Shown here: piece after piece, positions 9,851 to 28,468 of the stretch
Numbering within the stretch: the stretch's first letter is position 1
How the letters are laid out: every line of letters begins with the position of its first letter
Program-made: the position numbers and the translations under genes
The notes under the pieces: generated by a model
The model's input: only the letters and a program-made list of their open reading frames with translations
Told to the model about the DNA's origin: nothing
Databases searched by the model: none
IMG/VR virus record: IMGVR_UViG_3300031578_000260
Coordinates: 1-28,468 of that record
DNA length: 28,468 bases
Source: a virus
Direction: 5' to 3' (one strand)

Positions 9851-10440
9851 GTCCAATAGAATATATCAAAGAAGGTATTCGTGAAGGCAACTGGGAAACT
9901 GTTTGTGAGGGGTACGAACGACTTACGGGTGAAGCTTTACAATTGCCAGGAACAACGACAGCATCAAATGATGCTGAGTGCGCACTTAGACAGATCGCCG
10001 ATATTGTATTGGGCTTGCCGAAAATTAAGTCTACTACAACATCTGTAGAAAAACCACCAAAATTAGAAAAGAAAAAATCGGGCAAACCAAAAGGAAGCAA
10101 AAATAGTAAAACTAAGAAAAAATCCATAGTTACCACTGATGGAGAAGACACTTCCATTTTGTTAAATGATAGTGACAGAACAACAGTCCAACGACAAGAA
10201 GGCGGTGTACGATTAATTACTAATGATCCTGATCCAAAAGAAGTAGAGAGAAACAAGAAGAGGGCTCTAAAAGCACGATCAAACAAACTGAAACTCGATA
10301 GACCCGTGGCTCGTAAATACGAAGCAATATGTAACGAGTGTGAAGGAACATTTGAGGCGGATCGCCCTAGTGGTGAGATGGGACAAAAATGTCCGAAGTG
10401 TCTTGGGGGACAGAAAAGTAGGTTCAATCATGGGAAATAA
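9847..10440 (+). CDS. Lys-rich linker protein with C-terminal zinc ribbon
   Basis: 197 residues, not recognised as a family. The N-terminal 60 residues look helical. Residues 60-100 are low-complexity, rich in Lys, Ser and Pro (for example KKKSGKPKGSKNSKTKKK), and probably disordered. The C-terminus is a four-cysteine zinc ribbon (C162-x2-C165 and C182-x2-C185). The architecture fits a nucleic-acid-binding accessory protein. AGGGAG precedes the start and its 3' end overlaps dnaB by 11 bases, so it is probably co-expressed with the helicase. A single-stranded-DNA-binding or helicase-loading role is possible but unproven. Confidence 0.65.
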   Translation: MSPIEYIKEGIREGNWETVCEGYERLTGEALQLPGTTTASNDAECALRQIADIVLGLPKIKSTTTSVEKPPKLEKKKSGKPKGSKNSKTKKKSIVTTDGEDTSILLNDSDRTTVQRQEGGVRLITNDPDPKEVERNKKRALKARSNKLKLDRPVARKYEAICNECEGTFEADRPSGEMGQKCPKCLGGQKSRFNHGK

Positions 10441-14682: not shown

Positions 14683-15613
14683 ATGTAGCGCTAGTTCAAT
14701 CGGATTATACAACCATTGTTCTTTCGCCTATTTCCTCCACTATATCTTGGGTCTAGAATCACGAGCAGGCAAAGCAGCGCTCCAGGGCAGTATTGTACAC
14801 CAGGCTCTAGAATGGATGGTCAAATTGCGCAAACGCGGCAAGACTAATGTCGATCCCATGTGGTTACTCAATAGGGCTTGGGACGAACACACAGCAGCAT
14901 CTCCCGAAATAGCCATAAGAAGAGTTACCACACGTATCGATAAAGAAACTGGTGGATTTAAGGAATGTGCGGATTTCAAAAAATGTCGAATAGCACTCGA
15001 AACAGTATTGGAGGATCAATTTTACAATCCGTACAATCTTAACGTTATAGATAGTGAACGATGGTTCGCGCTCGCAATGCCCGGAAAAGAATGGGAATGT
15101 GTCGATGAGGACGGAAAGACACACCAATTTGCATCACGGGGTTTTATAGACTTTACCCACGAACTCGACAAAGAAACATTAGAAATTGTAGACTGGAAAA
15201 CTGGTGCGAGAAAAAGTTTCTACACACAAGAATCAATTGATGAAGTAGTGCTGATGAAAGAAATACAGCCTAGACTTTATCATTTGGCAGCATATTTTTT
15301 GTATCCCAAGTATAAGAAATTTTTAATAACCTTTTATTATACAAATTCTGGTGGGCCAATTACGATTGCTTTGTCTCAAGATGACTTAGCTAAAACGATA
15401 GCTATTTTACATAGCTTCTTTACGACAGTTAAAAGGGATACATTAATTCGCAGAAACCGTCACTGGACTTGTAAAATGTGCGGTTTTAATAACAACGGAA
15501 TATGTTCGAGGGTGTGGAGCGATTTACACACAATGGGTGGCGATTATGTTGAAGACCGCTACGCTGGCCTGGATTGTGAAGGTCAGTTGGCTATTGGAAA
15601 ACCAGAGAAATAA
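14669..15613 (+). CDS. Cas4/RecB-like PD-(D/E)XK nuclease (copy B)
   Basis: 314 residues from ATG 14669; a GTG at 14660 in the same frame is an alternative. The start SASSIGLYNHCSFAYFL is the usual N-terminal motif of this nuclease group. Core residues: G-S-I-V-H44, D161 (RGFIDF), D175-W-K177 (EIVDWKTG) and Q200-P-R-L-Y. The C-terminal C268-x2-C271-x7-C279 with an early cysteine (C17) could hold an Fe-S cluster. It shares only family features with copy A (2687), so the two are diverged paralogues rather than a recent duplication. It overlaps the preceding gene by 14 bases and is followed after one base by endonuclease copy 2. Confidence 0.85.
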   Translation: MKIVRCSASSIGLYNHCSFAYFLHYILGLESRAGKAALQGSIVHQALEWMVKLRKRGKTNVDPMWLLNRAWDEHTAASPEIAIRRVTTRIDKETGGFKECADFKKCRIALETVLEDQFYNPYNLNVIDSERWFALAMPGKEWECVDEDGKTHQFASRGFIDFTHELDKETLEIVDWKTGARKSFYTQESIDEVVLMKEIQPRLYHLAAYFLYPKYKKFLITFYYTNSGGPITIALSQDDLAKTIAILHSFFTTVKRDTLIRRNRHWTCKMCGFNNNGICSRVWSDLHTMGGDYVEDRYAGLDCEGQLAIGKPEK

Positions 15614-15614
15614 A

Positions 15615-16265
15615 ATGCCAAAGTTCATTGATTTAATTGGGAAAAAATTTGGTAAACTTATTGTTATCAAATATGCTAATAAAAATCAATGGGGACAGAT
15701 AAAATGGCTATGTCAGTGTGATTGTGGCAAAGAAATTGTCGTTCTTGGTTATCATCTTAAAAGTGGTCATACTCAAAGCTGTGGGTGTTTCCAGAAAGAA
15801 ATGGTTGTACGACAATTAACTAAACATGGTCATAACACAAAAAATGGAACAACTGCAACTTATTTATCATGGCGAGGTATGATTCAAAGATGCACTGATC
15901 CTAATTTTAAGCAATATAAGGATTATGGCGGTCGAGGAATCACGGTTTGTCAACGATGGGAAAATTTTACAAATTTTCTTGAAGATATGGGAGAACGTCC
16001 ATCAAGACTTACTCTGGATAGAATTAAAAACGATAAAGGGTATTGTAAATCTAATTGTCGGTGGGCAACCAGAAAACAACAAGCCAGAAATAGACAAAAT
16101 AACCGTTTAATTACATATAACGGAAAAGCTCAATGTGTTGCAGCTTGGGCAGAGGAAACGGGGATACATAAGGGGACCATCTTAAGGCGTTTGAAACTTG
16201 GTTGGTCAACAGAAAAAGCATTAATAACTCCAGCAGGGAAACAAGGAAAGCAAAATAATGAATAA
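15615..16265 (+). CDS. HNH-like putative homing endonuclease (copy 2)
   Basis: 216 residues. Same layout as copy 1: KFIDLIGKKFGKL start, cysteines C33, C35, C37, C56 and C58, Y104-G-G-R-G-I, a full GYCKSNCRWAT core and a C-terminal recognition module (CVAAWAEETGI, LGWSTEKALITP). The region around GGRGITVC is almost identical to copy 1 at the DNA level, suggesting recent spread or gene conversion. The natural start is ATG 15615, one base after the nuclease stop; the frame is open further upstream but only inside the preceding gene. Its 3' end overlaps the polymerase N-piece start, and its last Lys codons double as an AAGGAAAG ribosome site for that gene. Confidence 0.78.
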   Translation: MPKFIDLIGKKFGKLIVIKYANKNQWGQIKWLCQCDCGKEIVVLGYHLKSGHTQSCGCFQKEMVVRQLTKHGHNTKNGTTATYLSWRGMIQRCTDPNFKQYKDYGGRGITVCQRWENFTNFLEDMGERPSRLTLDRIKNDKGYCKSNCRWATRKQQARNRQNNRLITYNGKAQCVAAWAEETGIHKGTILRRLKLGWSTEKALITPAGKQGKQNNE

Positions 16266-17628
16266 TCCAAAAACATATATTCCACTCCACCAGCATAGTT
16301 ACTTTTCACTTTTGGATGGTTTGTCGGCGCCGAAAGACATAGTTAAAAGATGTATAGAATTGGGTTTACCTGGATGCAGTATCACTGACCATGGAACCTT
16401 GGCTGGTATGAAAGCATTTTATGATGAATGTCAGAAAGCGAAAATCAAATGTATTGTTGGTTGTGAAATTTATCAGTGTGAACAACACGCAACTATCAAA
16501 AATAATGGCAACAATAAGAGAAATCATTTAATTATTTTAGCTCGAAACGATGCGGGAATAAAGGATTTAATGTCTCTTGTGAGTGAATCGAATAAGCCAG
16601 AACATTTTTATAGAAAACCTCGACTTAGCCTTGAACAAATCACGCCGTTTGCTAAACATGGTAATTTAATTTGCTTAAATGCCTGCATAGCCGGACAATT
16701 ACCGATGTCTTTATTCACTGATTTCAAAGCGGCTATCATGGCGGGTCGTAATGGAAACGCAGCGGGTTCGAGAGAATATCTCAAACCAGATTGGAAAGAT
16801 GTTGGCAAAGCTATCATTGCCGAGCATCTAGCCATATTTGGAAAAGGTAATTATTATCTTGAAATTCAACTCGCTGGAATGGATATGCAGGTAGTCGTAG
16901 CAGAATGTCTTCGTGAATTAAGTAAAGAAACTGGAATACCTGTTGTGCCGACGACCGATTCTCATTATTGTAGAAAAAATGACGCCGAGGACCAGAGACT
17001 TTTACTTTATGCTTCGCTTCACACAACTAAAGAGGCGCAAGATTATAAAATTTCTACCGGACAAGATGTTATGGACTTTTTTATATCAGATAATTATTAT
17101 ATACTTTCTTATGACGAGATGAGACAACACTTCACGGAGGAAGAACTTCAAACTACATTAGATATTGCAAATCGGATAGAATATTCAGGGTTGGGTCACA
17201 ACCCGTATTTACCGCTTTTCACAAATGACGAATCTACGAAACTCAAACTTAACTCAAATGAATATCTGAAATATCTCTGTATCGAAGGCGCAAAAACAAA
17301 GCTTACACACTTGACCCCTGAACAGAAAAGGATATATTGGGACAGACTACAGAGAGAACTTATTGTTATTATGGAAGCTAAATTGGCAGATTACTTCCTG
17401 ATTGTCTGGGACGCTTGCAAATTTGTAGATGAAAATCATGGTCCTAGAGGGAAGGGGCGTGGTTCTGGTGCTGGTTCTCTAATCAACTATCTCACGGGAA
17501 TTACCGGTATCGATCCAATCGAGTACGGACTATACTTCGAACGATTTTACAACAGTGGTAGAAACGTTCAAAAACATATATCTTTTGATGAATTTTCTTT
17601 CGATAAATTTATTCAGGACAATTATTAA
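16258..17628 (+). CDS. dnaE: DNA polymerase III alpha (DnaE-type), N-terminal piece: PHP domain and start of palm
   Basis: 456 residues. It opens with the PHP domain: H11-Q-H13, D44-H45, E70, H90, C143 and D234-S-H236 look like the complete metal-ligand set, so the PHP may be an active 3'-5' exonuclease rather than a relic. The palm begins with GRGSGAGSLINYL (about 400-412), followed by TGIDPIEYGLYFERFYNSGRN. After that the protein runs into a 20-residue tail unlike other DnaE and stops, just before the catalytic PDIDID motif that appears in the next polymerase piece. The stop overlaps the endonuclease start (TAATG). It must pair with the pieces at 18284 and 26979 to form an enzyme. Confidence 0.92.
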   Translation: MNNPKTYIPLHQHSYFSLLDGLSAPKDIVKRCIELGLPGCSITDHGTLAGMKAFYDECQKAKIKCIVGCEIYQCEQHATIKNNGNNKRNHLIILARNDAGIKDLMSLVSESNKPEHFYRKPRLSLEQITPFAKHGNLICLNACIAGQLPMSLFTDFKAAIMAGRNGNAAGSREYLKPDWKDVGKAIIAEHLAIFGKGNYYLEIQLAGMDMQVVVAECLRELSKETGIPVVPTTDSHYCRKNDAEDQRLLLYASLHTTKEAQDYKISTGQDVMDFFISDNYYILSYDEMRQHFTEEELQTTLDIANRIEYSGLGHNPYLPLFTNDESTKLKLNSNEYLKYLCIEGAKTKLTHLTPEQKRIYWDRLQRELIVIMEAKLADYFLIVWDACKFVDENHGPRGKGRGSGAGSLINYLTGITGIDPIEYGLYFERFYNSGRNVQKHISFDEFSFDKFIQDNY

Positions 17629-18287
17629 TGGAATATGCAAAACCAAAATTAATACAAATTCTTAAAAATGAATCAGATAATGGAAATATATGCGGAGAAT
17701 TTCAATGTTATTGTGGCAGAATTTTCAAAACTAGATTGTTATCAGTTAAAAGTGGCCATTGTAAAAGCTGCGGCTGTTTACAAAAACAATATGCGTCAAA
17801 AATTGGTAAATTAAACAAAACACACGGCCATACAATAAATGGGAAACACTCAAGAACACATCATATATGGATCGGAATGAGAAGGAGATGTAATAATCAT
17901 AATGATTCTGCTTATAAAGATTATGGAGGACGAGGTATCGCCGTATGTGAAAGATGGAACAATAAAAAAACTGGATATATAAATTTTTTGAATGACATTG
18001 GAGAAATTCCAGAAAGCAAAACTATTGATCGTATTGAGAACAATGGGAATTATTGTCCAGAAAACTACAAATTGTCAACCATGGCAGAGCAATCAAGAAA
18101 TAGAAGAACCAATCATTTATTAAAATATGATAACAAAGAATTATGTTTTGCGGAATGGGAGGAGATAACAGGAATAAAACAAGCGACGATACGATATAGA
18201 ATTAAAGTTGGTTGGTCTGTAAGGAATGCGTTAACAATTCCGGCAGATACGATGCATAATAAAAAAAGAAAAGGAGATCAACGATGA
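17628..18287 (+). CDS. HNH-like putative homing endonuclease (copy 3) splitting the polymerase gene
   Basis: 219 residues. It belongs to the same family (cysteines C27, C29, C45, C48 and C50; D98-Y-G-G-R-G-I; GIKQATIRYRI and KVGWSVRNALTIP at the C-terminus). It differs from copies 1 and 2 in lacking the KFIDLxGKKFG opening and in having NYKLST where they have the NCRWAT-type string, so its activity may be lost. It sits exactly between two polymerase pieces, overlapping both (TAATG at its start, ATGA at its end). This is the arrangement expected of a free-standing homing endonuclease that has broken an essential gene. The Lys/Arg-rich tail carries the AAGGAGA site that starts the next piece. 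Confidence 0.75.
   Translation: MEYAKPKLIQILKNESDNGNICGEFQCYCGRIFKTRLLSVKSGHCKSCGCLQKQYASKIGKLNKTHGHTINGKHSRTHHIWIGMRRRCNNHNDSAYKDYGGRGIAVCERWNNKKTGYINFLNDIGEIPESKTIDRIENNGNYCPENYKLSTMAEQSRNRRTNHLLKYDNKELCFAEWEEITGIKQATIRYRIKVGWSVRNALTIPADTMHNKKRKGDQR
18271..18277 (+). promoter_or_regulatory. Strong ribosome binding site for the polymerase middle piece
   Basis: AAGGAGA lies inside the last codons of endonuclease copy 3, six bases before ATG 18284. It explains how the catalytic polymerase piece can be translated as a separate polypeptide. Confidence 0.8.
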
Positions 18288-19222
18288 ATTTTCGTGAATT
18301 CATAAAAAATAAAATAAATAAAGAAAGATTTATACAAATTAAAGATAATAAATTCTTTACTTTAGAAGTTGATATATTAAAAGATATTAAAATACAAAAA
18401 TATTATCAGTACTTAATAGATAACGTAGATTTAGATAGAAATAATCCGAGCAATAGTTATGTAATGTGGATTGTTGAAAAGGTCAATAAGATATGTTTTG
18501 ATAAGCCCCCAATTATTAATCCTGGTCATATCAGCCTCCCAGATATAGACATAGACCTTTCAGTTGTCTTTCGTAGTAAGGTGATAGCATATCTCAAAGA
18601 GCGATGGGGCGAAGAATATGTTGCCCAGATGATAACATTCGGTCGGCTTCAAGGGAAAGCGGCTCTGAAAGAAGTATTTCGTGCTAATCCAGATACGGTG
18701 AGACATCTAATGAAGGTTAAGGCTCTGAAAGAAGGGAAAGATACGGATGATATTAGTATCACACCTCACGATTTATGCAATGATATTACACATCATATCC
18801 CAGAAGAAGCCACAATAACGGATGAATTGAGACAAGCGAGAGCAGAACAAGGGGATGATTACGGCATATTGCAGTGGGCTGTGCATAATATTGAATATGT
18901 TCAGGATGCCTATGAATGGTATAAACCACTATTTGATCAAGCGATACGTATTGAAGGAACCAAAAAGTCTCAGTCCAAACATGCTGCTGGAGTTGTAATT
19001 GCTGATAGACCGATAGCAGAATTAGTGCCATTAGCCTATGATACCAAGAGCAAAAATCGCGTTGTTGGCGTAGAGATGGGCCATGCCGAGGCAATGGGGT
19101 GTGTCAAGTTTGATTTCCTCGGTGTTGTAGCACTAGATAAGATGTGGAAAGCACAGGATTTGATTAACGGATGTGATGACGAAGTAGCTCTAGAGGAAGG
19201 ACTTATCAATGAAACAGACTGA
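18284..19222 (+). CDS. DNA polymerase III alpha, catalytic middle piece (palm)
   Basis: 312 residues. After an AT-rich, Lys/Asn/Ile-rich first 75 residues with no clear DnaE match, it shows GHISLPDIDIDL with D89 and D91 aligned to the first two catalytic aspartates. It continues with FGRLQGKAALKEVFR, then SKHAAGVVIADRPIAELVPL, and KFD277FLG carrying the third catalytic aspartate. So all three polymerase aspartates lie on this fragment. It ends soon after (ALDKMWKAQDLIN) with an acidic tail, just where intact DnaE would enter the fingers domain; the fingers are encoded at 26979. It overlaps the HAD gene by 14 bases. Confidence 0.9.
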   Translation: MNFREFIKNKINKERFIQIKDNKFFTLEVDILKDIKIQKYYQYLIDNVDLDRNNPSNSYVMWIVEKVNKICFDKPPIINPGHISLPDIDIDLSVVFRSKVIAYLKERWGEEYVAQMITFGRLQGKAALKEVFRANPDTVRHLMKVKALKEGKDTDDISITPHDLCNDITHHIPEEATITDELRQARAEQGDDYGILQWAVHNIEYVQDAYEWYKPLFDQAIRIEGTKKSQSKHAAGVVIADRPIAELVPLAYDTKSKNRVVGVEMGHAEAMGCVKFDFLGVVALDKMWKAQDLINGCDDEVALEEGLINETD

Positions 19223-19583
19223 TCACGCCGCACATATCAAGACGGTTTTTTGTGATATCGATGGATGTATATTAAAACATCATGGCAATATGACAGCTAT
19301 ACTTACTAATCCGTGTAAATTATTGCCTGGTGTACGAGAGGCTTTCAAACGATGGGGTTATAAAGGATATACGATTGTTTTAACAACGGGACGACCAGAG
19401 AGTCTTCGAAGCTTTACAAATCAACAATTACACGATACTGGTTTGTTTTTCCATAGTTTAATCATGGGACTGCCCAAAGGACAACGAGTAGTTATTAATG
19501 ACATGAAAGCCAAAACAATTGCCGAAACCGCCGCTTGCGTAAATCTACCTCGAAATAAGGGAATGGAACATGTTGACATCTAA
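19209..19583 (+). CDS. Small HAD-superfamily phosphatase
   Basis: 124 residues. HAD motif I is F-C-D16-I-D18-G, motif II is the TTGRPES string (Thr as the phosphate ligand), and the late INDMKAK region supplies the acidic motif. The short length, without a large cap, resembles phosphatases found in sugar-nucleotide and capsule clusters. It would remove phosphate from a small sugar phosphate. It starts inside the polymerase piece with an AGGAAGGA site about 8 bases upstream and overlaps the aldolase-like gene at its 3' end. The natural partner is the GatZ-like protein next to it. Confidence 0.83.
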   Translation: MKQTDHAAHIKTVFCDIDGCILKHHGNMTAILTNPCKLLPGVREAFKRWGYKGYTIVLTTGRPESLRSFTNQQLHDTGLFFHSLIMGLPKGQRVVINDMKAKTIAETAACVNLPRNKGMEHVDI

Positions 19584-20604
19584 TCTGGCCTGCGGACCAA
19601 TGAGTAAAGAAGTTATTGAAGCAGTTTTCCGCCATTCCAGTAGGTTCGGGAAACAGTTGATGCTCATATGTTCTCGTAATCAGGTGGATATTGATAGTGG
19701 ATATGTATTTACTACATCACAGTATATTGATTATTTGGCAAGCATGAAACATAAATACCCATATGCAAATGTTGCTATTTGCCGTGACCATTGTGGTCCT
19801 GGTTTCGGAAGCCCCAGCAATTCTCTGGAATCCGTTCAGGATACTATCCGTTGTGATTTGGAACATGGCTTCGATCTTATTCATATCGACTTATGCAATG
19901 CCACAACAAAATGGGATACGGATACATTGGCATTTGGACGAGCCATGTCGCATAAAGAAAAGATACAAAATACTATAGCATTAATGCAATTTGCCCTAGA
20001 CACAAGGCCAGATATAAGATTTGAAATCGGAACAGATGTCAATAGGGGGAAGGCCGAAGACGATGTCGATAGAATCGTAGAAGATGCCCGGACATGTCAA
20101 CAAATATCACACCCTGCTTTCTATGTCGTGCAGACAGGCAGTCTTGTGCGAGAAGCAAGTAACGTAGGATCGTTTGATATTGACAAAGTTCGTGTCATAC
20201 ACAAGGCGTTAAGCAAATTGGGTATCAAAACGAAAGAACATAACGCCGATTATCTAACCACCGAACAAATAGCTTATCGAAAAGGTATTGTAGGTGCTGT
20301 AAATATTGCTCCGCAACTAGGGGTCGTACAAACTAGTCATGTACTGTCTAAGGCTTTAATGTATGGTATAGATATTAAGCATTTTATAGATGAAGTTAAT
20401 AACGGCGGAAATTGGGAGAAATGGCTTTATGCATCCGTAGGGATGCGGCGAATACCATGTGCGTGGATAGCTGGCCACTATCACTTTAACGGGCAGGCAT
20501 ATCAACAAATTGTTGCAAAGCTTTCGAAAAAGATCAATATTCGTGAAAGTATTATTAGTGAAATAACAAGTGTAATCGAACATTACTTGTTTTCATTGGA
20601 GTAG
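19570..20604 (+). CDS. GatZ/KbaZ-like tagatose-bisphosphate aldolase family protein
   Basis: 344 residues. The order NQVD (37-40), R72-D-H-C-G-P-G78, a strand with HIDL, F-E-I-G-T-D-V-N-R-G, and KEHNADYLT matches the GatZ/KbaZ TIM-barrel family: SxNQV, GGDHLGP, IGTEV and AHSTDY in the bacterial proteins. In enteric bacteria GatZ supports the class II aldolase GatY, which makes or cleaves tagatose 1,6-bisphosphate; stand-alone relatives occur in surface-sugar loci and may be catalytic themselves. The start overlaps the HAD gene by 14 bases. It is shorter than E. coli GatZ (about 420 residues), mostly at the C-terminus. The real substrate is unknown. Confidence 0.8.
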   Translation: MLTSNLACGPMSKEVIEAVFRHSSRFGKQLMLICSRNQVDIDSGYVFTTSQYIDYLASMKHKYPYANVAICRDHCGPGFGSPSNSLESVQDTIRCDLEHGFDLIHIDLCNATTKWDTDTLAFGRAMSHKEKIQNTIALMQFALDTRPDIRFEIGTDVNRGKAEDDVDRIVEDARTCQQISHPAFYVVQTGSLVREASNVGSFDIDKVRVIHKALSKLGIKTKEHNADYLTTEQIAYRKGIVGAVNIAPQLGVVQTSHVLSKALMYGIDIKHFIDEVNNGGNWEKWLYASVGMRRIPCAWIAGHYHFNGQAYQQIVAKLSKKINIRESIISEITSVIEHYLFSLE

Positions 20605-20609
20605 AGACT

Positions 20610-20957
20610 ATGGAAGCTATTGGAAAACCGTGGGGTAAAGAAGAAATTCTTGCTAACACAGAAAGATATGTTGTCAAAAAAATATATATGTACAAAGGGC
20701 ATAGATGTAGTCTACAATATCATGAGTACAAAACAGAAACCATCTATGTATTAAGTGGTGCATTGTTAATTACCAAAAATTTTATCGGAGCTAAATCGAC
20801 TTGGGAAGATATTGTTTTGTATCCTGGTGATTTTTGCACTATTTTACCAGGAGAAGTACATCGCATGGAAGGTAAAGAAGACGCAATTTACTTAGAAGCA
20901 TCTACGACCGAATTGGACGACGTAGTAAGAGTTGAGGACGATTATGGGAGAGAATAA
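20610..20957 (+). CDS. Cupin similar to the C-terminal domain of type II phosphomannose isomerase
   Basis: 115 residues. KPWGKEE at the start, G30-H-R-C-S-L-Q36-Y-H38, E43 in the KTETIYVLSG strand and H84 in PGEVHRM are the cupin metal ligands and motifs of mannose-6-phosphate isomerase (ManC/WbpW C-terminal domain). Here the domain stands alone, directly before a nucleotidyltransferase of a different type. It would isomerise a ketose phosphate to an aldose phosphate, in line with the aldolase upstream, although stand-alone cupins can also be epimerases. It overlaps the next start by 14 bases. Confidence 0.82.
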   Translation: MEAIGKPWGKEEILANTERYVVKKIYMYKGHRCSLQYHEYKTETIYVLSGALLITKNFIGAKSTWEDIVLYPGDFCTILPGEVHRMEGKEDAIYLEASTTELDDVVRVEDDYGRE

Positions 20958-22509
20958 AACATACAAAGTACTAATTCCAACCGCTGGTGTTGGCTCCAGA
21001 TTAGGCAATCATTGCGATCATGTCAATAAGACATTGGTCCCAGTAGCCAATCGTCCAATTATTTCGTACATTATCGAGAAATTTCCGCCAAACATAGAAT
21101 TGATTATTGATCTTGGACACAAAGGGGAATTGGTAAAAGAATTTTTAACATTGGCTTATCCAGATCGTAAGTTCACATTCATATGGGCAAATAGAAATGG
21201 TCTTACGGCAGATTTATGTGATTACCAAGATATGCTACAATGTCCGTTTATATTTTTTACCAACGATGCGATAGTAACAGAAGATATTCCACCGCCAGAT
21301 CATGATTGGATAGGACATGCCAATGTCCGGGCTGGTCAAGATTATCGTTCTGTTGTCGTAGATTCATGGGATAACACAGTAGTAAAGGATTTAGGCGAAA
21401 AGGGTGTTCACACAGAAGCAAAAGCTTATATTGGAATTTGTGGTATCCACGATTACAAAACCTTCTGGGAAGCTATGGACGAAGCTTTGCAAAAAGGTAC
21501 CACCAATCAAGGAGAATCATTTGCCTTAGCTTCGATGATAAAAGAGCAGCCAATTAAAGGGGTTGAATTTACATGGTACGATACTGGTACAGTAGAATCG
21601 CTTGCGCACGCAAATAATATATTCCACCGAGAGGATGCCCCTAATATTCTTCCAAAAGAACAGGAACACATTTGGTTTTGCAATGATAGAGTCATCAAGT
21701 TCTCAACAGACCAAGAATTCATTGCACAAAGAGTTGAACGAGCTATCGCATTAAGTGGGCATGTTCCGATAATCGAAGGAAGTACTCCGAATATGTATTG
21801 TTACAAAATGATCGATGGTCAAGTTTTATCTAGAACTATAACCACATCATTATTTAGGAAGTTCCTTATTTGGATGGAAGAAATGTGGGGAGATAGACAA
21901 TTATTGACAGCCGATGTTCAAGATGTATATCTTCGATTTTACAAAGACAAGACTATTCAACGAGTATGTGATTACTTTGAACGTTTTGGATATCACGATT
22001 CAGCACAATGTATCAATGGTGTAGATGTTCCGCCTATATTTGAGTTACTGGACAAGATAGATTGGACGTGGATATCTACAGGAATTCCAGTCCGCTTTCA
22101 CGGCGACTTACATTTCGAGAATATTATAGATATGGATGGATATTTCTGTTTATTAGACTGGAGACAAAATTTTGGTGGGTTAAGTGATTACGGTGATATC
22201 TATTACGATTTAGCCAAACTGTGGCATGGACTAATTGTATCACACGGCATTATAAACAAAGGTTTGTATGAGATTGATATAAATGGTGACACAGTTAACT
22301 TTGATTTACTGAGAAGACAAACACTCATTGATTGTGAAACATGGCTACAACAATATTTGGTACGTAACCATTACGACTACCACAAAGTAAAATTGTTGAC
22401 AGCACTTATATATCTCAATATCGCAGCGTTACATCATCAACCATATGCAGAAATGCTATTTCACCTTGGAAAATTAATGCTAAATGAATTGGAGGAATAT
22501 AATGAATAA
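20944..22509 (+). CDS. Fusion: sugar nucleotidyltransferase plus choline/aminoglycoside-type kinase
   Basis: 521 residues from ATG 20944 (GAGG six bases upstream). The N-terminal half (about 6-235) is a nucleotidyltransferase: I-P-T-A-G-V-G-S-R-L-G, K29 in NKTLVPVANRPI, and a TNDA metal site near 107. The C-terminal half (about 270-520) is an APH/choline-kinase fold: H386-G-D-L-H-F-E-N-I is the catalytic loop and LLDWRQNFGG the metal-binding DFG equivalent, with DYGDIYYDLAKL after it. The pair would phosphorylate a sugar or alcohol and then couple it to a nucleotide, as separate enzymes do in the AmgK/MurU and LicA/LicC pathways. One chain carrying both steps is uncommon. It ends inside the next start. 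Confidence 0.85.
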   Translation: MGENKTYKVLIPTAGVGSRLGNHCDHVNKTLVPVANRPIISYIIEKFPPNIELIIDLGHKGELVKEFLTLAYPDRKFTFIWANRNGLTADLCDYQDMLQCPFIFFTNDAIVTEDIPPPDHDWIGHANVRAGQDYRSVVVDSWDNTVVKDLGEKGVHTEAKAYIGICGIHDYKTFWEAMDEALQKGTTNQGESFALASMIKEQPIKGVEFTWYDTGTVESLAHANNIFHREDAPNILPKEQEHIWFCNDRVIKFSTDQEFIAQRVERAIALSGHVPIIEGSTPNMYCYKMIDGQVLSRTITTSLFRKFLIWMEEMWGDRQLLTADVQDVYLRFYKDKTIQRVCDYFERFGYHDSAQCINGVDVPPIFELLDKIDWTWISTGIPVRFHGDLHFENIIDMDGYFCLLDWRQNFGGLSDYGDIYYDLAKLWHGLIVSHGIINKGLYEIDINGDTVNFDLLRRQTLIDCETWLQQYLVRNHYDYHKVKLLTALIYLNIAALHHQPYAEMLFHLGKLMLNELEEYNE

Positions 22510-23065
22510 ATCTAGTTTGCAGCATGGGCTTACACTAATCAATCCTAAATATAAACATGTTTTAGAATTTGGAGTATGTCATGGAGGAACCATTCGGACA
22601 ATTAGACAAACCCTAGACGAATCTTTTCAAGTATTTGGTTTTGATTCATTTGTAGGATTACCAGAAGCTTGGGTGGACAAAAACGGAAAAGTAGTTGTAC
22701 CGCCAGAATATTTCTCGACTAATGGAGTGATTCCTGATGTTAAGGATGTCAAATTCTATGCTGGATGGTTCACAGATACGCTATCAGATTACCTTCAGAT
22801 TGCCGAACCCATTGCGCTATTACACATAGATTCCGATCTATATAGTTCTGCTAAAGAAGTTTTAGAAGCACTTGATGACTATATAGTACCAGGTACAATT
22901 ATTGTATTTGATGAATGGTTTTATAGACACGATGAGAAATATGACGATCACGAACAAAGGGCGTTTAACGAATGGGTGTTAACGTTTGATCGTAAGTACG
23001 AAGTAGTCCATTTTGTAGACAAAACTACTTCCGGTGAAGAGCGTAAGATTGTTCGCACACTATAG
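22502..23065 (+). CDS. TylF/MycF-like SAM-dependent O-methyltransferase
   Basis: 187 residues from ATG 22502, with GGAGG at 22491-22495. SAM-binding motif I is E22-F-G-V-C-H-G-G-T, followed by VFGFDSFVGLPE (D48), GWFTDTL, and LLHIDSDLYSS as the metal-binding DxD-type motif of the TylF/macrocin O-methyltransferase family. VPGTIIVFDE is the following strand. These enzymes methylate hydroxyls on sugars or natural products. Its setting among sugar genes suggests it decorates the sugar made upstream. A small mammalian-type COMT activity is less likely given the VGLPE motif. Confidence 0.87.
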   Translation: MNKSSLQHGLTLINPKYKHVLEFGVCHGGTIRTIRQTLDESFQVFGFDSFVGLPEAWVDKNGKVVVPPEYFSTNGVIPDVKDVKFYAGWFTDTLSDYLQIAEPIALLHIDSDLYSSAKEVLEALDDYIVPGTIIVFDEWFYRHDEKYDDHEQRAFNEWVLTFDRKYEVVHFVDKTTSGEERKIVRTL

Positions 23066-23094
23066 GGCAAGGTACAGATAAAGGAAAACACAAT

Positions 23095-23814
23095 ATGGGA
23101 AAAGAAGGCATGATGCAGAATAATTGGGAGCGTAATCCATCCGATGTCGTTGGTCTTAAATATATACCGACAATAAAACCAGAATATTTAGACGACGAAC
23201 AAAGAATGTTCGTTAGAGTTAAAGATGGATTTGGTCTACCTATGTGTATTCATAATAATTTACCTGGGAATACCCCGCTAGTCCATAGTGGACCTTCCAT
23301 TAGACAGTCGCACGTAGATATGCTAAGTAATGCCATATCCTCTGATACTAAAACTATATTGGAAATTGGAATAAACGTGTATAAAAAACCATTACTATCA
23401 ACGACAAGAGCAATTTTAGAAAACAAAGAAGATGATTGTGTATATCTCGGAATTGATGTTAATGATAAATCAAGTATAAATGACGTAAGCAAAAATATAC
23501 ATACGATGAAGATTGATTCCAGTTTACGTAAAATCATCAGAGAAAAAATGCTGGAACTTGGAATGAAAACTATTGACCTATTAATGATAGATGGAGATCA
23601 TTCTATAACACTAATGGTCAATGATTGGTGTTTTACTGAATTCTTATCGCCGCGAGCTAATGTAATCATACATGATACCAATGTACATATAGGCCCAAGA
23701 TCAGTTTTTGATGCAATAGATGAAACATTATTCGATAAACAACTAATAGGTTCAGAAATAAAATCAGGCAAGTTCTTAGACTATGGCATGGGCATAGCTA
23801 GGAGATTATTTTGA
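23095..23814 (+). CDS. Probable class I methyltransferase-like protein
   Basis: 239 residues. The SAM-fold signals are ILE90IG, LGID121VN, and IDLLMID166GDHS followed by VIIHDTN (193-196). A 70-residue N-terminal extension rich in Pro and charged residues has no match I know. The D-G-D-H string resembles the metal-binding site of the methyltransf_24/TylF-type group. The glycine-rich loop of motif I is weak (IGINVYKKP), so SAM binding is less certain than in the neighbours. The start ATG 23095 has AAGGA at about 23081-23085; another ATG lies five codons later. It is next to TylF-like and glycosyltransferase genes. Confidence 0.65.
   Translation: MGKEGMMQNNWERNPSDVVGLKYIPTIKPEYLDDEQRMFVRVKDGFGLPMCIHNNLPGNTPLVHSGPSIRQSHVDMLSNAISSDTKTILEIGINVYKKPLLSTTRAILENKEDDCVYLGIDVNDKSSINDVSKNIHTMKIDSSLRKIIREKMLELGMKTIDLLMIDGDHSITLMVNDWCFTEFLSPRANVIIHDTNVHIGPRSVFDAIDETLFDKQLIGSEIKSGKFLDYGMGIARRLF
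23800..23804 (+). promoter_or_regulatory. Ribosome binding site supporting a TTG start
   Basis: AGGAG is six bases before TTG 23811, which overlaps the preceding TGA by two bases. With no ATG near the protein's first strand (MKIALCLNG), TTG is the best-supported start of the following gene. Confidence 0.75.
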
Positions 23815-24653
23815 AAATCGCACTATGCTTAAATGGTATGGCACTACATCCGGGCAAAAAAGTTGTCGGCGGCCAGATGTGGGATGGCAAGACAGGAAAG
23901 AGGACGCCTGTTGAATGGGAGAAGGGTTTAGAGCATTATCAGAAGCATATGTTTGCCCACAACGATATAGATGTCTTTATGCACACCCCAAGTGTTGATG
24001 CAGAACAAGATTTGAGAAATGCATATAAACCAAAAGCCGCGATATTCGAACCAGACCCAAAATTCAACATTAATGGAGCAAAGGTTGATAAAAATTACCC
24101 TGATGGTATTACGTCGAAAACACAGATAACCATTGCAAGATGGTATAGTATTCAGAGATGTATGCAACTCAAAAAAAAATATGAAGAACAACACGGTTTC
24201 AAATATGATATGGTTATGATTGGTAGATTCGATGTTGCTTGGATGACCGATGTACATTTTAATCAATTCGATCCAAACCATTTTTACGCTTCGAACTGGT
24301 GTGTTATGAGAATGTCAAATGGGCAAGGAATCCGACATGAAGATTGGTTTCTTCATGGATGGAATAAAAAAGAAAATAAGGAACTTCAACATATTCATAT
24401 AGGATACCCGCACACACCTAATTACCCGGCTTTGGCTGACTATTTTTTCTTTGGAGGCTCTGAAATCATGGATAAGTTTGGGAACTTGTATGATAATGTT
24501 AGCAAATTCCTGAAAGAAGGAGTTCCATCAAATCATGAATTTGCGATAAAACAATTGAAAATTACAGGATTATTGCCCAAATTAAAGTTCGCATTCCACA
24601 TCCATAATGACGTTTTCCTGGCTCGTTTTGTATATTTTGATTGGAGAAAATAA
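23811..24653 (+). CDS. Putative glycosyltransferase-like protein (TTG start)
   Basis: 280 residues. It begins with a Rossmann-like strand (MKIALCLNGMA). The central part reads QHGFKYDMVMIGRFDVAW (about residues 127-143) with an RFD motif like the metal-binding acidic motif seen in several surface-sugar transferases, preceded by a helix of SIQRCMQLKKKYEE. IHIGYP and ADYFFFGGSEIMDKF (about 218-232) match the pattern of DUF-type glycosyltransferases in capsule and phage loci. I do not know a named homologue, so glycosyltransferase is a family-level guess. It starts at TTG with the preceding AGGAG site. The extension of the 3' end into the FkbM frame is not supported. Confidence 0.6.
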   Translation: MKIALCLNGMALHPGKKVVGGQMWDGKTGKRTPVEWEKGLEHYQKHMFAHNDIDVFMHTPSVDAEQDLRNAYKPKAAIFEPDPKFNINGAKVDKNYPDGITSKTQITIARWYSIQRCMQLKKKYEEQHGFKYDMVMIGRFDVAWMTDVHFNQFDPNHFYASNWCVMRMSNGQGIRHEDWFLHGWNKKENKELQHIHIGYPHTPNYPALADYFFFGGSEIMDKFGNLYDNVSKFLKEGVPSNHEFAIKQLKITGLLPKLKFAFHIHNDVFLARFVYFDWRK

Positions 24654-24654
24654 T

Positions 24655-25230
24655 ATGAATAGAATATTTTTAGACGTAGGAAGTCATCAGGGCCAAACAA
24701 TAGAATTGTTGTTACAGCCCAGATTCAAAGTCGACCACATTATTGGGTTCGATCCATCTCCGTTGTGTCTCGACATTCTAAATAGAAAATTCAACAATAA
24801 CACAAGGGTAAAAATTGTTAAAGCTGGATTGTGGTCGGAGACGTGCGAGATGTTGCTTCATAATGAGGGTTCACAAGGGGGAACAGTCCATGAAGATTAT
24901 GAAACCACTTGCAACCCCGAGAAACGAGTGACGAGATGTCAATTCATAAAGGCATCCGATTGGTTTCGTGATAATATATCATCTGATGATGAAATATTTT
25001 TGAAAATTAATGCTGAAGGTAGCGAGTGTGAAATTGTTTTAGACCTTATTAATTCTGGCGAATATGATAAAGTTAAGGCAACGCTAATAGATTTTGATGT
25101 CCGCAAGAGTCCATCTCAGAAACACAAAGAAGATGAATTACGAGAACGGATGGAGGCAGAAAACATAAGTAACATTCATACGTACATGGGTGACGCGCGA
25201 CACATGTTATTGTATTCGGTGTTAAGATAA
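24655..25230 (+). CDS. FkbM-family SAM-dependent methyltransferase
   Basis: 191 residues from ATG 24655, with GGAG 8 bases upstream. SAM motif I is F-L-D7-V-G-S-H-Q-G-Q-T, followed by IIGFDPSP and KAGLWSET. F-L-K-I-N-A-E-G-S-E and LIDFDVRK are the later core strands typical of FkbM methyltransferases. These methylate hydroxyl groups on sugars and polyketides. It is the third methyltransferase-like gene of the island. The open frame continues to 24607 upstream but that part overlaps the glycosyltransferase gene and gives a hydrophobic segment with no ribosome site. The stop codon overlaps the ATG of the decayed endonuclease (TAATG). Confidence 0.85.
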   Translation: MNRIFLDVGSHQGQTIELLLQPRFKVDHIIGFDPSPLCLDILNRKFNNNTRVKIVKAGLWSETCEMLLHNEGSQGGTVHEDYETTCNPEKRVTRCQFIKASDWFRDNISSDDEIFLKINAEGSECEIVLDLINSGEYDKVKATLIDFDVRKSPSQKHKEDELRERMEAENISNIHTYMGDARHMLLYSVLR

Positions 25231-25360
25231 TGGGCAAATTCATAGACCTGTCTGGGAAGAAGTTCGGACGACTAATTGTAAATGTGGCTGGTCATTGACA
25301 AAAGCATTGACCACACCTGCTCGCAAATACAAGAAAAGGAAAAATAATGGGAAAACCTAA
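25230..25360 (+). pseudogene. Remnant of a fourth HNH-like homing endonuclease with a large internal deletion
   Basis: The first 17 codons read MGKFIDLSGKKFGRLIV, closely matching the start of copies 1 and 2. The frame then hits TGA at 25296. In another frame, 25280-25360 encodes KCGWSLTKALTTPARKYKK and then stops at 25358, matching the C-terminal KLGWSTEKALITP region of copy 2. About 500 bases between the two ends are missing. The original stop would have overlapped the next gene's first codons, as in the intact copies. The surviving tail still contains AAAGGA before ATG 25347, which probably serves the downstream gene. Confidence 0.85.
25335..25340 (+). promoter_or_regulatory. Ribosome binding site left in the endonuclease remnant
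   Basis: AAAGGA is six bases before ATG 25347 and lies in the Lys-rich C-terminal tail of the decayed endonuclease. It is the only good ribosome site for the downstream glycosyltransferase. Confidence 0.65.
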
Positions 25361-26096
25361 AATTTGGCTCTATTGGGATAATATTCCACCAGCAGTAGAA
25401 CCCCCTGCTTATATCAAGTTATGTCTAGAAACAATAGAAAGACACTGTCAGGAAGATTTTAACATCCACATGGTGACAACTGATAATGTAAAACAGTTTT
25501 TACCGAATATTTCTGAAACCTTTTTTCAAATTGCTCAAATCAATAATAAGTCCAATTATCTGCGGTATATGTTACTGAGAGAATATGGGGGGATATGGCT
25601 CGATTCTGATCTCATCCTATTTAGAAGTCTGAAACCAACGCTTGATCTATTAAAGGATGGAATTGATCTTATAGCGACCGCTTCCCCAACTCTTAAGTAT
25701 GGCGAACCAGAGTGTGGATTTTTGCTTTCGACGCAGCGCGGTGGAGTTATTTCAAAAGCCGTCAATCTAATTGAGCACGCCTTGAGCCTTCATGAACCGG
25801 GCCACATTTTCCGTTGGGGCGGACTTGGACCTTCTATAGTGCGTCAAGCTGTATCTGGATTGTCTTATCATCACCTGGATAACAAATTGATACAGCCTAT
25901 TGCCTCATGGGAGGCTTTCAGATTCGACGGAAAAGAACAGATCGACCGCGTCTGTATTGAGAACCCTTTTGGCGTCATGCTGTTTCATCAAATGTTCAAG
26001 CAGGGTAATTCCCAATCATTAAGAATGAACCGTGGGCAACTTCTTGAAGCTCCGACTCTTTTGGGGCAAATGTTTAGAAGGGCAATGGGTGAATAA
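25347..26096 (+). CDS. Glycosyltransferase with DxD motif, GT32/capsular type
   Basis: 249 residues. PKIWLYWDNIPPAVEPPAY at the start, a conserved NYLRYMLLREYGGIWLDSD segment (DSD at about residue 86) and a late WGGLGPSIV string match the sugar-transferase DXD family used in capsule and lipopolysaccharide synthesis (GT32, Caps_synth/Gly_transf_sug). The DSD binds the metal and nucleotide of the NDP-sugar donor. It would transfer a hexose, perhaps the activated sugar of this island, to an unknown acceptor. The start lies in the remnant of the endonuclease; the end overlaps the next ATG (TAATG). Confidence 0.85.
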   Translation: MGKPKIWLYWDNIPPAVEPPAYIKLCLETIERHCQEDFNIHMVTTDNVKQFLPNISETFFQIAQINNKSNYLRYMLLREYGGIWLDSDLILFRSLKPTLDLLKDGIDLIATASPTLKYGEPECGFLLSTQRGGVISKAVNLIEHALSLHEPGHIFRWGGLGPSIVRQAVSGLSYHHLDNKLIQPIASWEAFRFDGKEQIDRVCIENPFGVMLFHQMFKQGNSQSLRMNRGQLLEAPTLLGQMFRRAMGE

Positions 26097-26938
26097 TGAT
26101 GTGCGATGAGCATAAAATGCTGTTTATGACTGTAGCCAATAGGTCATATCAAAAATATGTCCCATGGTTTTTGTATTTCTTGAATAGAGCATATCCAGAA
26201 GCACATAAGTTAGTGATGCTGGACGAAACCATAACAGACGATGTTCGGGCCATGCTCGCTTTGTTGTCTGGCAACTTCGAGGTAAGAGAATTGTCTTTTG
26301 CCGAATATACACCAGAATACGGGTCAGCCGATGCCAATACTATAAAGTGCCTAAGATGGTTAGTGTATGAACCAGCATTTGAGCAATACGAATGCATGTC
26401 TATCGGCGATGTAGACATGGCTATTTATCGTGAGTTTCCATCTTATATGGACCAACATCTGGCTCATTGTCGACGATTAGGAATCCCATACAGCAATTTT
26501 ATCCGACCGCCCGTTGCTGGTCCTAGACGAATGGGTGGTATAAATGTAATCCAACCGAAAGAGTGGTTTGCGGCGATGCATCCAATGATCGATAAGTATC
26601 GTTCACGTCTTGCCCACGGTGATATTCGTTTACCGCCACTTGGCTTTAATGAACAACTATTATTGAAAATGATAATAGAATCAGATCTAGGTAAACCACC
26701 GTCAGATTTATCCGAGACTTATTGGCCCGCCCTAGTGACATCTAATCATCACGGGACACATATCCGATTGGCTGAACATGGTGGGATAATAGGACTTCGG
26801 GGAGCAAGGGGTTATCGGACACATAAACCCGAGGTTCTGGCTGCTGTTGAAACACCGCTTTTCAAACGGTTATCGGAAATGTCCCCGGATATCGGCTATA
26901 TATTGAAAACCGTTGCTAAGGCATACGAAAGTTTCTAA
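26096..26938 (+). CDS. Putative glycosyltransferase with GDVDM motif
   Basis: 280 residues. After NRSYQKYVPWFLYFLNRAYP it shows a CLRWLVYEPAF helix and I-G-D-V-D-M-A-I (about 102-109), an Asp-x-Asp metal site like those of GT8-type enzymes. Late motifs GFNEQLLLKMI and TSNHHGTHIRL resemble the closing part of the same fold. I cannot name the donor or acceptor. A second ATG follows one codon after the first; either may be used. It is the last gene of the island before the polymerase C-piece, separated by 40 bases that include the second dispersed repeat. Confidence 0.7.
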   Translation: MMCDEHKMLFMTVANRSYQKYVPWFLYFLNRAYPEAHKLVMLDETITDDVRAMLALLSGNFEVRELSFAEYTPEYGSADANTIKCLRWLVYEPAFEQYECMSIGDVDMAIYREFPSYMDQHLAHCRRLGIPYSNFIRPPVAGPRRMGGINVIQPKEWFAAMHPMIDKYRSRLAHGDIRLPPLGFNEQLLLKMIIESDLGKPPSDLSETYWPALVTSNHHGTHIRLAEHGGIIGLRGARGYRTHKPEVLAAVETPLFKRLSEMSPDIGYILKTVAKAYESF

Positions 26939-26978: not shown

Positions 26979-28468
26979 ATGATAGAGTTCAGCAATTGCG
27001 ATTGTAAAGTCACTCCTGGTGAATTCAGTATTAACGATATTTCACTGGATTGCCCTGCTACCTGGAAATTAATCTCAGGCGGTCATACTGTCGGTATTTT
27101 TCAGTTAGAGAAAAATCTGGGTCAAGATTGGGCCAAAAAAGTACGACCTAGCAATATTGAAGAATTGGCTGCTTTGGTAAGTATTTTGAGACCGGGAAGT
27201 CTTGATTCTGGAATGTCTCAGGATTATGTGGATATCAAATTCGGACGCAAAAAACATTCGTATCTACATCCGTTATTAAAGCCCATATTGGAACCGACTT
27301 ATGGTTGTCTAATTTTTCAAGAACAAGCCTTGCGGATTGCTACCGATCTTGCTGGATTCGATCCTATTGAAGCAGATATGCTAAGGTCTGCAATCGGTAA
27401 AAAATTAGCAGAGAAAATGGCATCTCTTAAAGATAAATTTATAGCAGGATGTCAAACCCATAGCCAAATTGGCAGGGGAATCGCAGAAGAAATATTCGGT
27501 TGGATTGAGAAGTGTCAAAGATATTCATTCAACTTAGCCCATGCAATGGGTTATGCTCTAGGAATAAGCTATCCAACAGCATGGTTAAAATGTCATTTCC
27601 CACAAGAATTTTTTACTAGCTATTTGACTTATTCCCAATATAAAGGTGATCCAAAAGAAGAAATTTATAAATTAGTACAGGACGCCCGATTATTTGGAGT
27701 GGATATTTTACCTCCCGATATTCGAAGGGGCAACATTCATTTTCAAATGACCGAAGAACCCCAGAAAGGCGTAGCATTCGGTCTGGCGCACATAAGGGGC
27801 GTAGGAGCCTCGGCTATCCAAAAGATCGTCACAGCGACCACCACAGGGGCCACAGTAGGGTCTCTAGAGACTTGGGCTCACTTCTTGGCGGCGGTTCCAG
27901 GTTTCCATAGGAATGTGGGAATAGCTTTGATAAAATCTGGTGCATGTGATTGTTACGACATGAGTCGTAATGAAATGGTACGAGAACTGGAAATTATACT
28001 TGGAACTACTGCCAGAGATTTGAACGGGAATAAGGTCGAGATTAAAGGGTTAACAAATAAAGAGAGAATTCATTTTTTCGATCAACTTCATCAGGGGGCG
28101 ATGACTACTCAAGAAATTCTGTTACAAATGGCTCAACCCCCAGGTAATAAGACCAAGACGATTGGTCAGATGATCAAAAAAGAACTAGTACAAACTGCGG
28201 TAGAATATCTAGATCAGGCCGAATCTGCATTTGATAGCATTTCGGATGGGGACAGTAAATTCGTATATACATCACCCAAGGAAAAAGAAGATTGGCTTGA
28301 TACCATAAAAAATCGAACCAAAAAAGATATTGAGGCCCTACTGATACAAAATGGCTACAAGGATATTGCGGTTAAGTCTCCGTGTGCAAGTGACGCTAGA
28401 CGAAAAGTAGTAGAGGCGAAGGCGAATTTGTTAGAAGGCACTATCAATGATACTAATACGGTGAATGC
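26979..28468 (+). CDS. DNA polymerase III alpha, C-terminal piece (fingers onward), 3' partial
   Basis: 496 codons to the window edge with no stop. After about 30 residues it matches the DnaE fingers: GHTVGIFQLE (35-44), NIEELAALVSILRPGSLDSG, EPTYGCLIFQEQ (105-116), EADMLRSAIGKK (131-142), YSFNLAHAMGYALGISYPTAWLK, ILPPDI and GLAHIRGVGASAI (helix-hairpin-helix). This continues where the middle piece stops, so the three parts together would form one alpha subunit. ATG 26979 has GAGG about 11 bases upstream. The first 15 residues (MIEFSNCDCKVTPGE) have no DnaE counterpart I know. The end of the gene and any beta-clamp motif lie outside the window. Confidence 0.92.
   Translation, partial: MIEFSNCDCKVTPGEFSINDISLDCPATWKLISGGHTVGIFQLEKNLGQDWAKKVRPSNIEELAALVSILRPGSLDSGMSQDYVDIKFGRKKHSYLHPLLKPILEPTYGCLIFQEQALRIATDLAGFDPIEADMLRSAIGKKLAEKMASLKDKFIAGCQTHSQIGRGIAEEIFGWIEKCQRYSFNLAHAMGYALGISYPTAWLKCHFPQEFFTSYLTYSQYKGDPKEEIYKLVQDARLFGVDILPPDIRRGNIHFQMTEEPQKGVAFGLAHIRGVGASAIQKIVTATTTGATVGSLETWAHFLAAVPGFHRNVGIALIKSGACDCYDMSRNEMVRELEIILGTTARDLNGNKVEIKGLTNKERIHFFDQLHQGAMTTQEILLQMAQPPGNKTKTIGQMIKKELVQTAVEYLDQAESAFDSISDGDSKFVYTSPKEKEDWLDTIKNRTKKDIEALLIQNGYKDIAVKSPCASDARRKVVEAKANLLEGTINDTNTVN

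Follow-up and report, generated by a model that had tools for sequence, protein, structure and literature searches.

Kinase and nucleotidyltransferase pairs are known from AmgK/MurU and LicA/LicC, and serotype loci such as O-antigen clusters sit between fixed flanking genes. For sugar phosphates, PMC11907403 reports Escherichia coli GatZ and KbaZ as C4-epimerases that convert fructose 6-phosphate to tagatose 6-phosphate: deletion of gatZ abolished tagatose production, re-expression of gatZ alone did not rescue it and a phosphatase was then added. The same paper gives a computed model with zinc on GatZ His88, Glu171 and His257 and Asp87 as the base, names Lys279 and Glu44 as distinguishing the GatZ family from class II aldolases, and tells of an earlier study in which GatZ had no aldolase activity. 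Replicative polymerase genes split into separate open reading frames (ORFs) by an insert are described for PolB of jumbo phage MIJ3 (PMC6892783) and the DNAP gene of OM43 phages (PMC10580990). Here we analyze an IMG/VR virus record (IMGVR_UViG_3300031578_000260; 28,468 bases, hereafter the window) in which genes recalling all of these systems occur together, within a dnaE gene that is itself split.

Four consecutive genes on the + strand encode a HAD phosphatase, a GatZ/KbaZ-like enzyme (GatZ-like), a phosphomannose isomerase (PMI)-type cupin and a nucleotidyltransferase/APH-type kinase fusion (NTK). The kit, found in a group of large uncultured phages, probably makes an unusual sugar and activates it. 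We favor, with moderate confidence, the reading that the four genes form the sugar-supplying section of a glycan island that is exchangeable and lies between two halves of a phage dnaE. In the route we propose, the GatZ-like metalloenzyme would use retro-aldol/aldol chemistry to invert a ketose phosphate at C4, the cupin would convert the ketose to an aldose, and the HAD phosphatase would strip the phosphate before or after that isomerization. The APH-type kinase domain would then phosphorylate the aldose, most plausibly at C1, and the nucleotidyltransferase domain would make the nucleoside diphosphate (NDP)-sugar; were the starting compound fructose 6-phosphate, a talo- or galacto-configured NDP-aldohexose would result. 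Methyltransferases and glycosyltransferases of the island would methylate and attach the sugar, most likely to a virion or host-surface glycan, while the palm and fingers halves of DnaE would be made as separate proteins that must assemble.

A preliminary description of the window had placed these four enzymes in consecutive overlapping genes. All four ORFs and their order were confirmed in the ORF list of the window, but overlap fails once: the HAD gene runs into the GatZ-like gene (19583 versus 19570), and the cupin gene starts 5 bases after the latter ends. The gene names are remote-homology calls, because most Pfam matches fall below cut-offs, which only the cupin and the kinase domain pass among the four module genes. 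The glycan cassette spans 19209–26938, continuing past the NTK gene with three methyltransferase-like genes, a DUF7796-like gene, a Caps_synth-type glycosyltransferase gene and an unmatched gene. The features are given below (L numbers denote loci compared with the window):

16258–17628, + strand: DnaE-N, PHP domain and start of the polymerase palm (PF02811 E 1.3e-37, PF07733 E 6.9e-27)
17628–18287, + strand: homing-endonuclease-like gene between DnaE-N and DnaE-M, similar to two other window genes through cross-matches of L011 and L095 ORFs
18284–19222, + strand: DnaE-M, remainder of the palm, stopping shortly past a KFDFLG motif (PF07733 E 6.5e-33)
19209–19583, + strand: HAD phosphatase, 124 amino acids (Pfam HAD families E 2.5e-5 to 0.04, all below cut-offs)
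19570–20604, + strand: GatZ/KbaZ-like enzyme, probable ketose(-phosphate) C4-epimerase, 344 amino acids (PF08013 GatZ_KbaZ-like E 1.6e-5, 24.2 bits)
20610–20957, + strand: PMI-type cupin, probable ketose-aldose isomerase, 115 amino acids (PF01050 MannoseP_isomer E 1.5e-8, 35.3 bits, cut-off 23.6)
20944–22509, + strand: NTK (APH E 2.8e-5, above cut-off; NTP_transferase E 0.003, below)
22484–23065, + strand: TylF-type methyltransferase (PF05711 E 1.5e-13; phrog_6608 E 4.1e-36)
23095–23814, + strand: Methyltransf_24-like protein (PF13578 E 0.0012, below cut-off)
23811–24653, + strand: DUF7796-like/phrog_13607 protein (PF25072 E 4.2e-5, below cut-off; phrog_13607 E 3.4e-14)
24607–25230, + strand: FkbM-family methyltransferase (TIGR01444 39.4 bits, cut-off 37.7)
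25347–26096, + strand: Caps_synth/DXD glycosyltransferase (PF05704 E 3.8e-12)
26096–26938, + strand: 280-amino-acid protein with no family match, homologues of which lie near the right end of several islands; probably a transferase
26979–28468, + strand: DnaE-C, fingers and HhH domain, truncated by the window end (PF17657 E 1.8e-45, PF14579 E 1.9e-12)

The NTK start is given as TTG at 20932 in the ORF list, with the in-frame ATG at 20944 being likelier.

To measure linkage among the four genes, hidden Markov models (HMMs) were built from the window lineage and a few distant relatives and were then used to scan three sets of loci. For GatZ-seeded viral loci, 80 of 352 were kept, and dropping five duplicates among L095–L172 gave 73; for NTK-seeded viral loci, 80 of 342 were kept, 74 of them newly numbered, with L194 and L246 repeating the contigs of L096 and L095; for cellular loci, 80 of 222 were kept. 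NTK was present in 59/73 GatZ-seeded loci and the cupin in 53/73, and in the 14 loci without NTK the GatZ-like gene starts at most 1.4 kb from a contig edge. Reciprocally, the 74 NTK-seeded loci contained GatZ-like (57), cupin (56) and HAD (54) genes, counted anywhere in the locus. Parts of the module are also fused: cupin to NTK in L112, L263, L266 and L267, and HAD to cupin in L205, L230 and L236, although the ORFs of L230 and L236 are equal in length and may represent one lineage. A small control set of 15 loci (294 kb) scanned with the same HMMs was free of NTK, cupin and HAD matches, and its only GatZ matches came from the two E. coli loci containing gatZ and kbaZ. Because the module recurs, its parts fuse and its catalytic residues are conserved, the four genes are likely to be a sugar-activating pathway.

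Among the 80 cellular loci, a full NTK lay near GatZ-like in 34, neither NTK nor cupin was found in 38, and the remaining 8, with partial or cut modules, fell outside both main groups. The 38 (including L066, L074 and L078) are mostly Bacillota by their titles and carry longer GatZ-like proteins, with a PTS-permease-like neighbor in 27 and a transketolase-like one in 10; ten of them were placed in the GatZ-like tree, where they form one clade. These longer proteins are fitting candidates for a catabolic ketose-phosphate enzyme. Labels for PTS, transketolase, radical SAM, NAD-epimerase cluster and C-methyltransferase cluster, here and below, were assigned by visual inspection of ORFs except where a family scan is mentioned.

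Glycan-type genes are recurrent among the listed module neighbors. The DUF7796-like protein is itself a recurrent partner, the single-linkage cluster that contains its L246 and L194 relatives being present in 31/57 viral loci. In 40/55 other viral loci the module has next to it a HAD-type gene of another kind (cluster 2, of which the single member scanned matched Hydrolase_3), which suits a required dephosphorylation. The preliminary description had stressed that no dehydratase or epimerase of the common activated-sugar routes is present; this held for the window cassette, but an NAD-epimerase gene occurs in the L008 island and, judged by eye, a similar cluster in 30/57 other viral loci. Two further arrangements were seen in named viruses. 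In marine virus AG-345-E15 (L003:11311–14483), HAD, cupin, NTK and GatZ-like genes stand in a row amid glycan-like genes. Enterococcus phage Planchet (L005:5645–7617) has HAD and a distant NTK (23% identity) in a locus without GatZ-like or cupin, near glycosyltransferases, thymidylate synthase/hydroxymethylase and DnaE.

The GatZ-like protein was modeled with AlphaFold2 from 76 sequences (pLDDT 94.9) and compared by VIA-align. The top matches were 2fiq (Z 32.7, root-mean-square deviation 2.7, 332 aligned residues, 16% identity) and 3txv (Z 32.0), both deposited as tagatose 6-phosphate kinases, of which 2fiq is nearly identical to E. coli GatZ over the stretch compared. After the GatZ family came tagatose 4-epimerase 9kcs (26.6), UxaE 6il9 (25.7) and TsT4Ease 9lhw (25.4); these tagatose and tagaturonate 4-epimerases share the fold (Z 24–27) but are longer (489–500 residues) and only 9–13% identical. 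Profile comparison with E. coli GatZ/KbaZ gave a probability of 98.7%. GatZ D87, H88, E171 and H257 align with D73, H74, D/E156 and H224 of GatZ-like, so that the metal-ligand and catalytic Asp positions are kept; D73, H74 and H224 occur in 76/76 sequences, and Glu (42 sequences) or Asp (34) stands at position 156. Class II aldolases have three His metal ligands; the alignment to GatZ puts Asp/Glu at the third ligand position, and H303, also invariant, may supply a third His. The window protein differs from GatZ in being shorter (344 versus 420 amino acids) and in adjoining cupin and NTK genes, whereas E. coli gatZ and kbaZ adjoin PTS genes. Conservation and the predicted fold indicate that GatZ-like is probably an active metal enzyme of the epimerase/aldolase fold with an altered substrate pocket, and the model makes a C4-epimerase more likely than an aldolase.

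In the GatZ-like tree, the split-dnaE phages group with L103 and L112 (support 91, not starred). Next to them lie 19 cellular rows, chiefly from Woesearchaeota, Pacearchaeota and candidate-phyla bacteria, and the joint group has a starred support of 99; support for the phages as a strict clade is 24.

The other three proteins also retain their expected active-site residues. In the HAD protein, D16, D18 and T60 are invariant in nine rows, and its best PDB matches are Pnkp1 4xrp (E 1.8e-8) and 1xpj (E 5.1e-7). In the cupin (129 rows in total), Q36, H38 and E43 are found in 107, 109 and 109 of the 110 rows with a letter and H84 in 109/109, and an alignment with quercetinase puts these residues on the four metal positions. 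Phosphomannose isomerases use a Gln, His, Glu, His metal set. The nucleotidyltransferase domain of NTK carries a GxGxR signature, with G14 and G16 kept in 59, R18 in 56, K28 in 58 and D107 and D212 in 60 of 60 sequences, and the kinase residues H385, D387, N392 and D404 are kept in 60/60. The preliminary description had named inactive sequences as a point that would count against its route; the catalytic residues are conserved. Its sugar-activation idea is partly supported, by a linked module with reciprocal co-occurrence, fusions, clean controls and conserved catalytic residues; its aldolase is more likely an epimerase.

Several observations weigh against the proposed route, and the first group concerns GatZ-like. 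Its PF08013 score falls short of the gathering threshold (24.2–24.3 bits versus 26.7), GatZ Lys279 is replaced by Asn (N245) in 76/76 sequences, and GatZ Glu44 is replaced at position 34 by Ala (60), Cys (10) or other residues (6); because of these departures, its substrate or reaction may differ from that of GatZ. Class II aldolases have the same fold, and the best of them, 1gvf (Z 24.3), ties with the lowest epimerase rows (24.4–24.6). GatZ-like could instead be a genuine aldolase, condensing an aldehyde with dihydroxyacetone phosphate (or dihydroxyacetone), in which case the sugar would be built from small pieces and HAD would remove the leftover phosphate. The shared fold, the retained Asp-His pair and the loss of the lysine that, in PMC11907403, separates GatZ from aldolases all speak for such chemistry, which was also the assignment of the preliminary description. 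Set against them are the closest structural relatives, GatZ-family proteins and then 4-epimerases, and the absence of aldolase activity from GatZ in the earlier study told of in that paper, and we regard the aldolase as unlikely, although a serious candidate.

Further points on the same side come from the remaining enzymes. The cupin metal set reads Gln-x-His...Glu...His rather than His-x-His, although this set is PMI-like. The kinase domain of NTK gave four matches against PDB sequences, all at E 0.2 or worse and none convincing, and its fold was barely probed because the VIA list for NTK was filled by the nucleotidyltransferase domain; whole-chain matches of NTK in a viral fold library had TM-scores of 0.45 or less by query length, which is uninformative on substrate. 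For the nucleotidyltransferase domain, LicC 1jyk, a phosphocholine cytidylyltransferase, ties for the best fold (Z 23.3; MurU, Z 21.1) and is second by sequence (E 2.9e-6). The APH family includes choline kinases. NTK might thus activate a non-sugar alcohol (choline, aminoethanol, phosphonate or polyol) in the manner of LicA/LicC, with the other enzymes making or modifying the substituent. NTK differs from both LicA/LicC and AmgK/MurU in being one fused chain with GatZ-like, cupin and HAD partners. The frequency of the GatZ-like and PMI-type cupin partners and the cupin-NTK fusions indicate carbohydrate, and the best sequence match is a glucose-1-phosphate thymidylyltransferase (3hl3, E 1.2e-6). 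Choline activation is disfavored given these partners, and we consider the non-sugar alternative as a whole improbable.

Two further counts run counter to the sugar-activating route: GatZ-like is absent from 17/74 NTK loci, and AroE-like genes, which the route leaves unexplained, stand beside the module in 29/55 viral loci. Shikimate_dh_N matched in one viral and one cellular AroE-like member scanned. Together with C-methyltransferase-like genes in 15/57 viral loci, the AroE-like genes suggest that the product is finished differently in other viruses. One shikimate-dehydrogenase-like gene (L159:9274–10014) is near NTK and GatZ-like, and such genes occur in 8/34 cellular modules. As for the destination of the sugar, decoration of phage DNA, put forward in the preliminary description, gained no support as far as glycosylation through hydroxymethyl bases is concerned: no PF00303 (thymidylate synthase family) protein was found in ten related records, which may be fragments.

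The larger surprise, missed in the preliminary description, is that the cassette forms a variable glycan island located inside dnaE, between palm and fingers. The window dnaE consists of three ORFs (DnaE-N, DnaE-M and DnaE-C); the HAD gene shares 14 bases with the end of DnaE-M, and the start of DnaE-C is at 26979, after the last cassette gene. The N and M pieces are one ORF of ~780 amino acids in relatives showing both (longer in L095, which has an intein there), the C half measures ~615 amino acids in relatives free of large inserts, such as L008 and L010, and the extra N/M break in the window holds the AP2/HNH-like gene. Palm and fingers sides shared one ORF in none of 25 loci. One of these, L103, lacks dnaE, and removing repeats and near-identical copies left 18 contigs, with both halves in the locus in 10, the N side only in 3 and the C side only in 5. 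The top-ranked named phage in a DnaE-C search, Moorella phage MTATph1 (32.5% identity), has a single 3,213-bp polymerase gene.

Could the pieces be decaying remnants in phages that use the host polymerase, with the island lodged in a gene that is dead weight? The three-piece dnaE of the window would fit, and the assembly of its products is our inference. Ten related records searched end to end argue otherwise: both halves are present in all ten, each as one open frame at one place with no internal stops, so that no second dnaE was found; GatZ-like is present in six of the ten. C halves among related records are 51–77% identical per matched piece, the N/M ORF ends shortly past KFDxLG with a variable tail while the C ORF opens with a conserved region, alike across relatives, and inteins in some relatives' halves leave the frame intact. 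We therefore consider decay a poor explanation, with little probability.

Repair of the split by protein splicing, as in the split inteins of cyanobacterial DnaE, is less probable still and would be very surprising. Inteins do occur in these genes: besides the window DnaB, relatives' DnaE halves carry them, at differing points (L183:9977–12592, L095:16772–20641, L009:7175–9523 and L095:6060–9653; the Intein_splicing matches of L009 and of the L095 N side are below the Pfam cut-off), one of them near the site where cyanobacterial DnaE is split. By contrast, the ends that face the island are variable and short, and the starts consist of conserved polymerase sequence; at E 0.01, neither DnaE-M nor DnaE-C of the window matched Intein_splicing. 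Cyanobacterial-type trans-splicing was rejected on the lack of an intein match at the break. The case resembles MIJ3 PolB and the OM43 DNAP gene in having a replicative polymerase gene broken into separate ORFs; in PMC6892783 and PMC10580990 the gene is interrupted by a homing endonuclease together with a putative split intein, or by a small ORF, whereas here the insert is a multi-gene glycan island between DnaE palm and fingers with no intein match at the break.

The DnaB helicase gene of the window (10340–13135) has an intein with a LAGLIDADG domain (PF14890, PF14528), an insert that the 480-amino-acid DnaB ORF of L008 and L010 lacks. Three related AP2/HNH-like genes (3659–4300, 15537–16265 and 17628–18287) are present; the third, which had no Pfam match at E 0.01, breaks the N/M stretch, and this stretch varies among relatives.

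The content of the island differs among the 13 contigs with both dnaE halves, the window included. Seven have the four-gene set between the halves: the window, L008, L010, L012, L013, L095 and the contig of L002 and L009, the last counted on the basis that its two ends would have to join. The other six fall into an FkbM-CapsGT type (L174 and L183), a type with radical-SAM-like and transferase-like genes (by eye) followed by CapsGT and the 280-amino-acid protein (L181 and L189), and another gene set (L184 and L180). In L011, L096 and L101 the N side is followed by the four-gene set, and L188, where only the C side is visible, has PfkB-type kinase, methyltransferase and glycosyltransferase genes. 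Island type shows no clustering on the polymerase tree and does not track it: on the C-half tree (13 labeled of 16 rows; L178, L182 and L188 are unlabeled, their whole island being out of view) it requires 5 changes compared to a shuffled-label mean of 4.6, with starred branches alone forcing 2. For example, L181, with another island, groups with L008 and L095, which hold the four-gene set, at 100/99. The change count is soft because this tree has only one starred branch, a further point against the reading of island swapping. As in serotype loci, the glycan genes vary at a constant site whose flanks are conserved; unlike in those loci, the site is bordered by the halves of a single gene and is carried by a phage.

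A bolder version of the exchangeable-island reading, which we put forward tentatively as a possibility short of probable, is that the only DnaE found is a permanently two-piece polymerase whose broken gene serves as a fixed docking site. The halves would act as homology arms by which recombination swaps whole glycan islands between phages, as a phage serotype locus. One such island would encode a so far undescribed pathway whose product is a rare aldose, C4-inverted and NDP-activated (talose, for example), with core enzymes common to DPANN archaea, candidate phyla radiation (CPR) bacteria, marine bacteria and many other phages. Among the literature matches listed, which cover few subscription papers and no preprints, no title or abstract reports either the module or a glycan island that splits dnaE. 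For an activated sugar not accounted for by any standard route in the window, the locus gives a pathway of named enzymes that can be tested, and phages have this kit in common with poorly known microbes. The split dnaE would provide a natural example of a replicative polymerase separated into palm and fingers parts, as well as a clear genetic site for glycan-gene swapping that could explain fast change of phage or host-surface sugars.

Glycan genes are also found outside the island. Downstream of the L180 dnaE-C lie an SSB gene and glycosyltransferase-type genes (L180:12948–18080; phrog_2170, phrog_44), with similar ORFs, by eye, in other relatives, so that fixed and variable glycan genes may lie next to each other in these phages.

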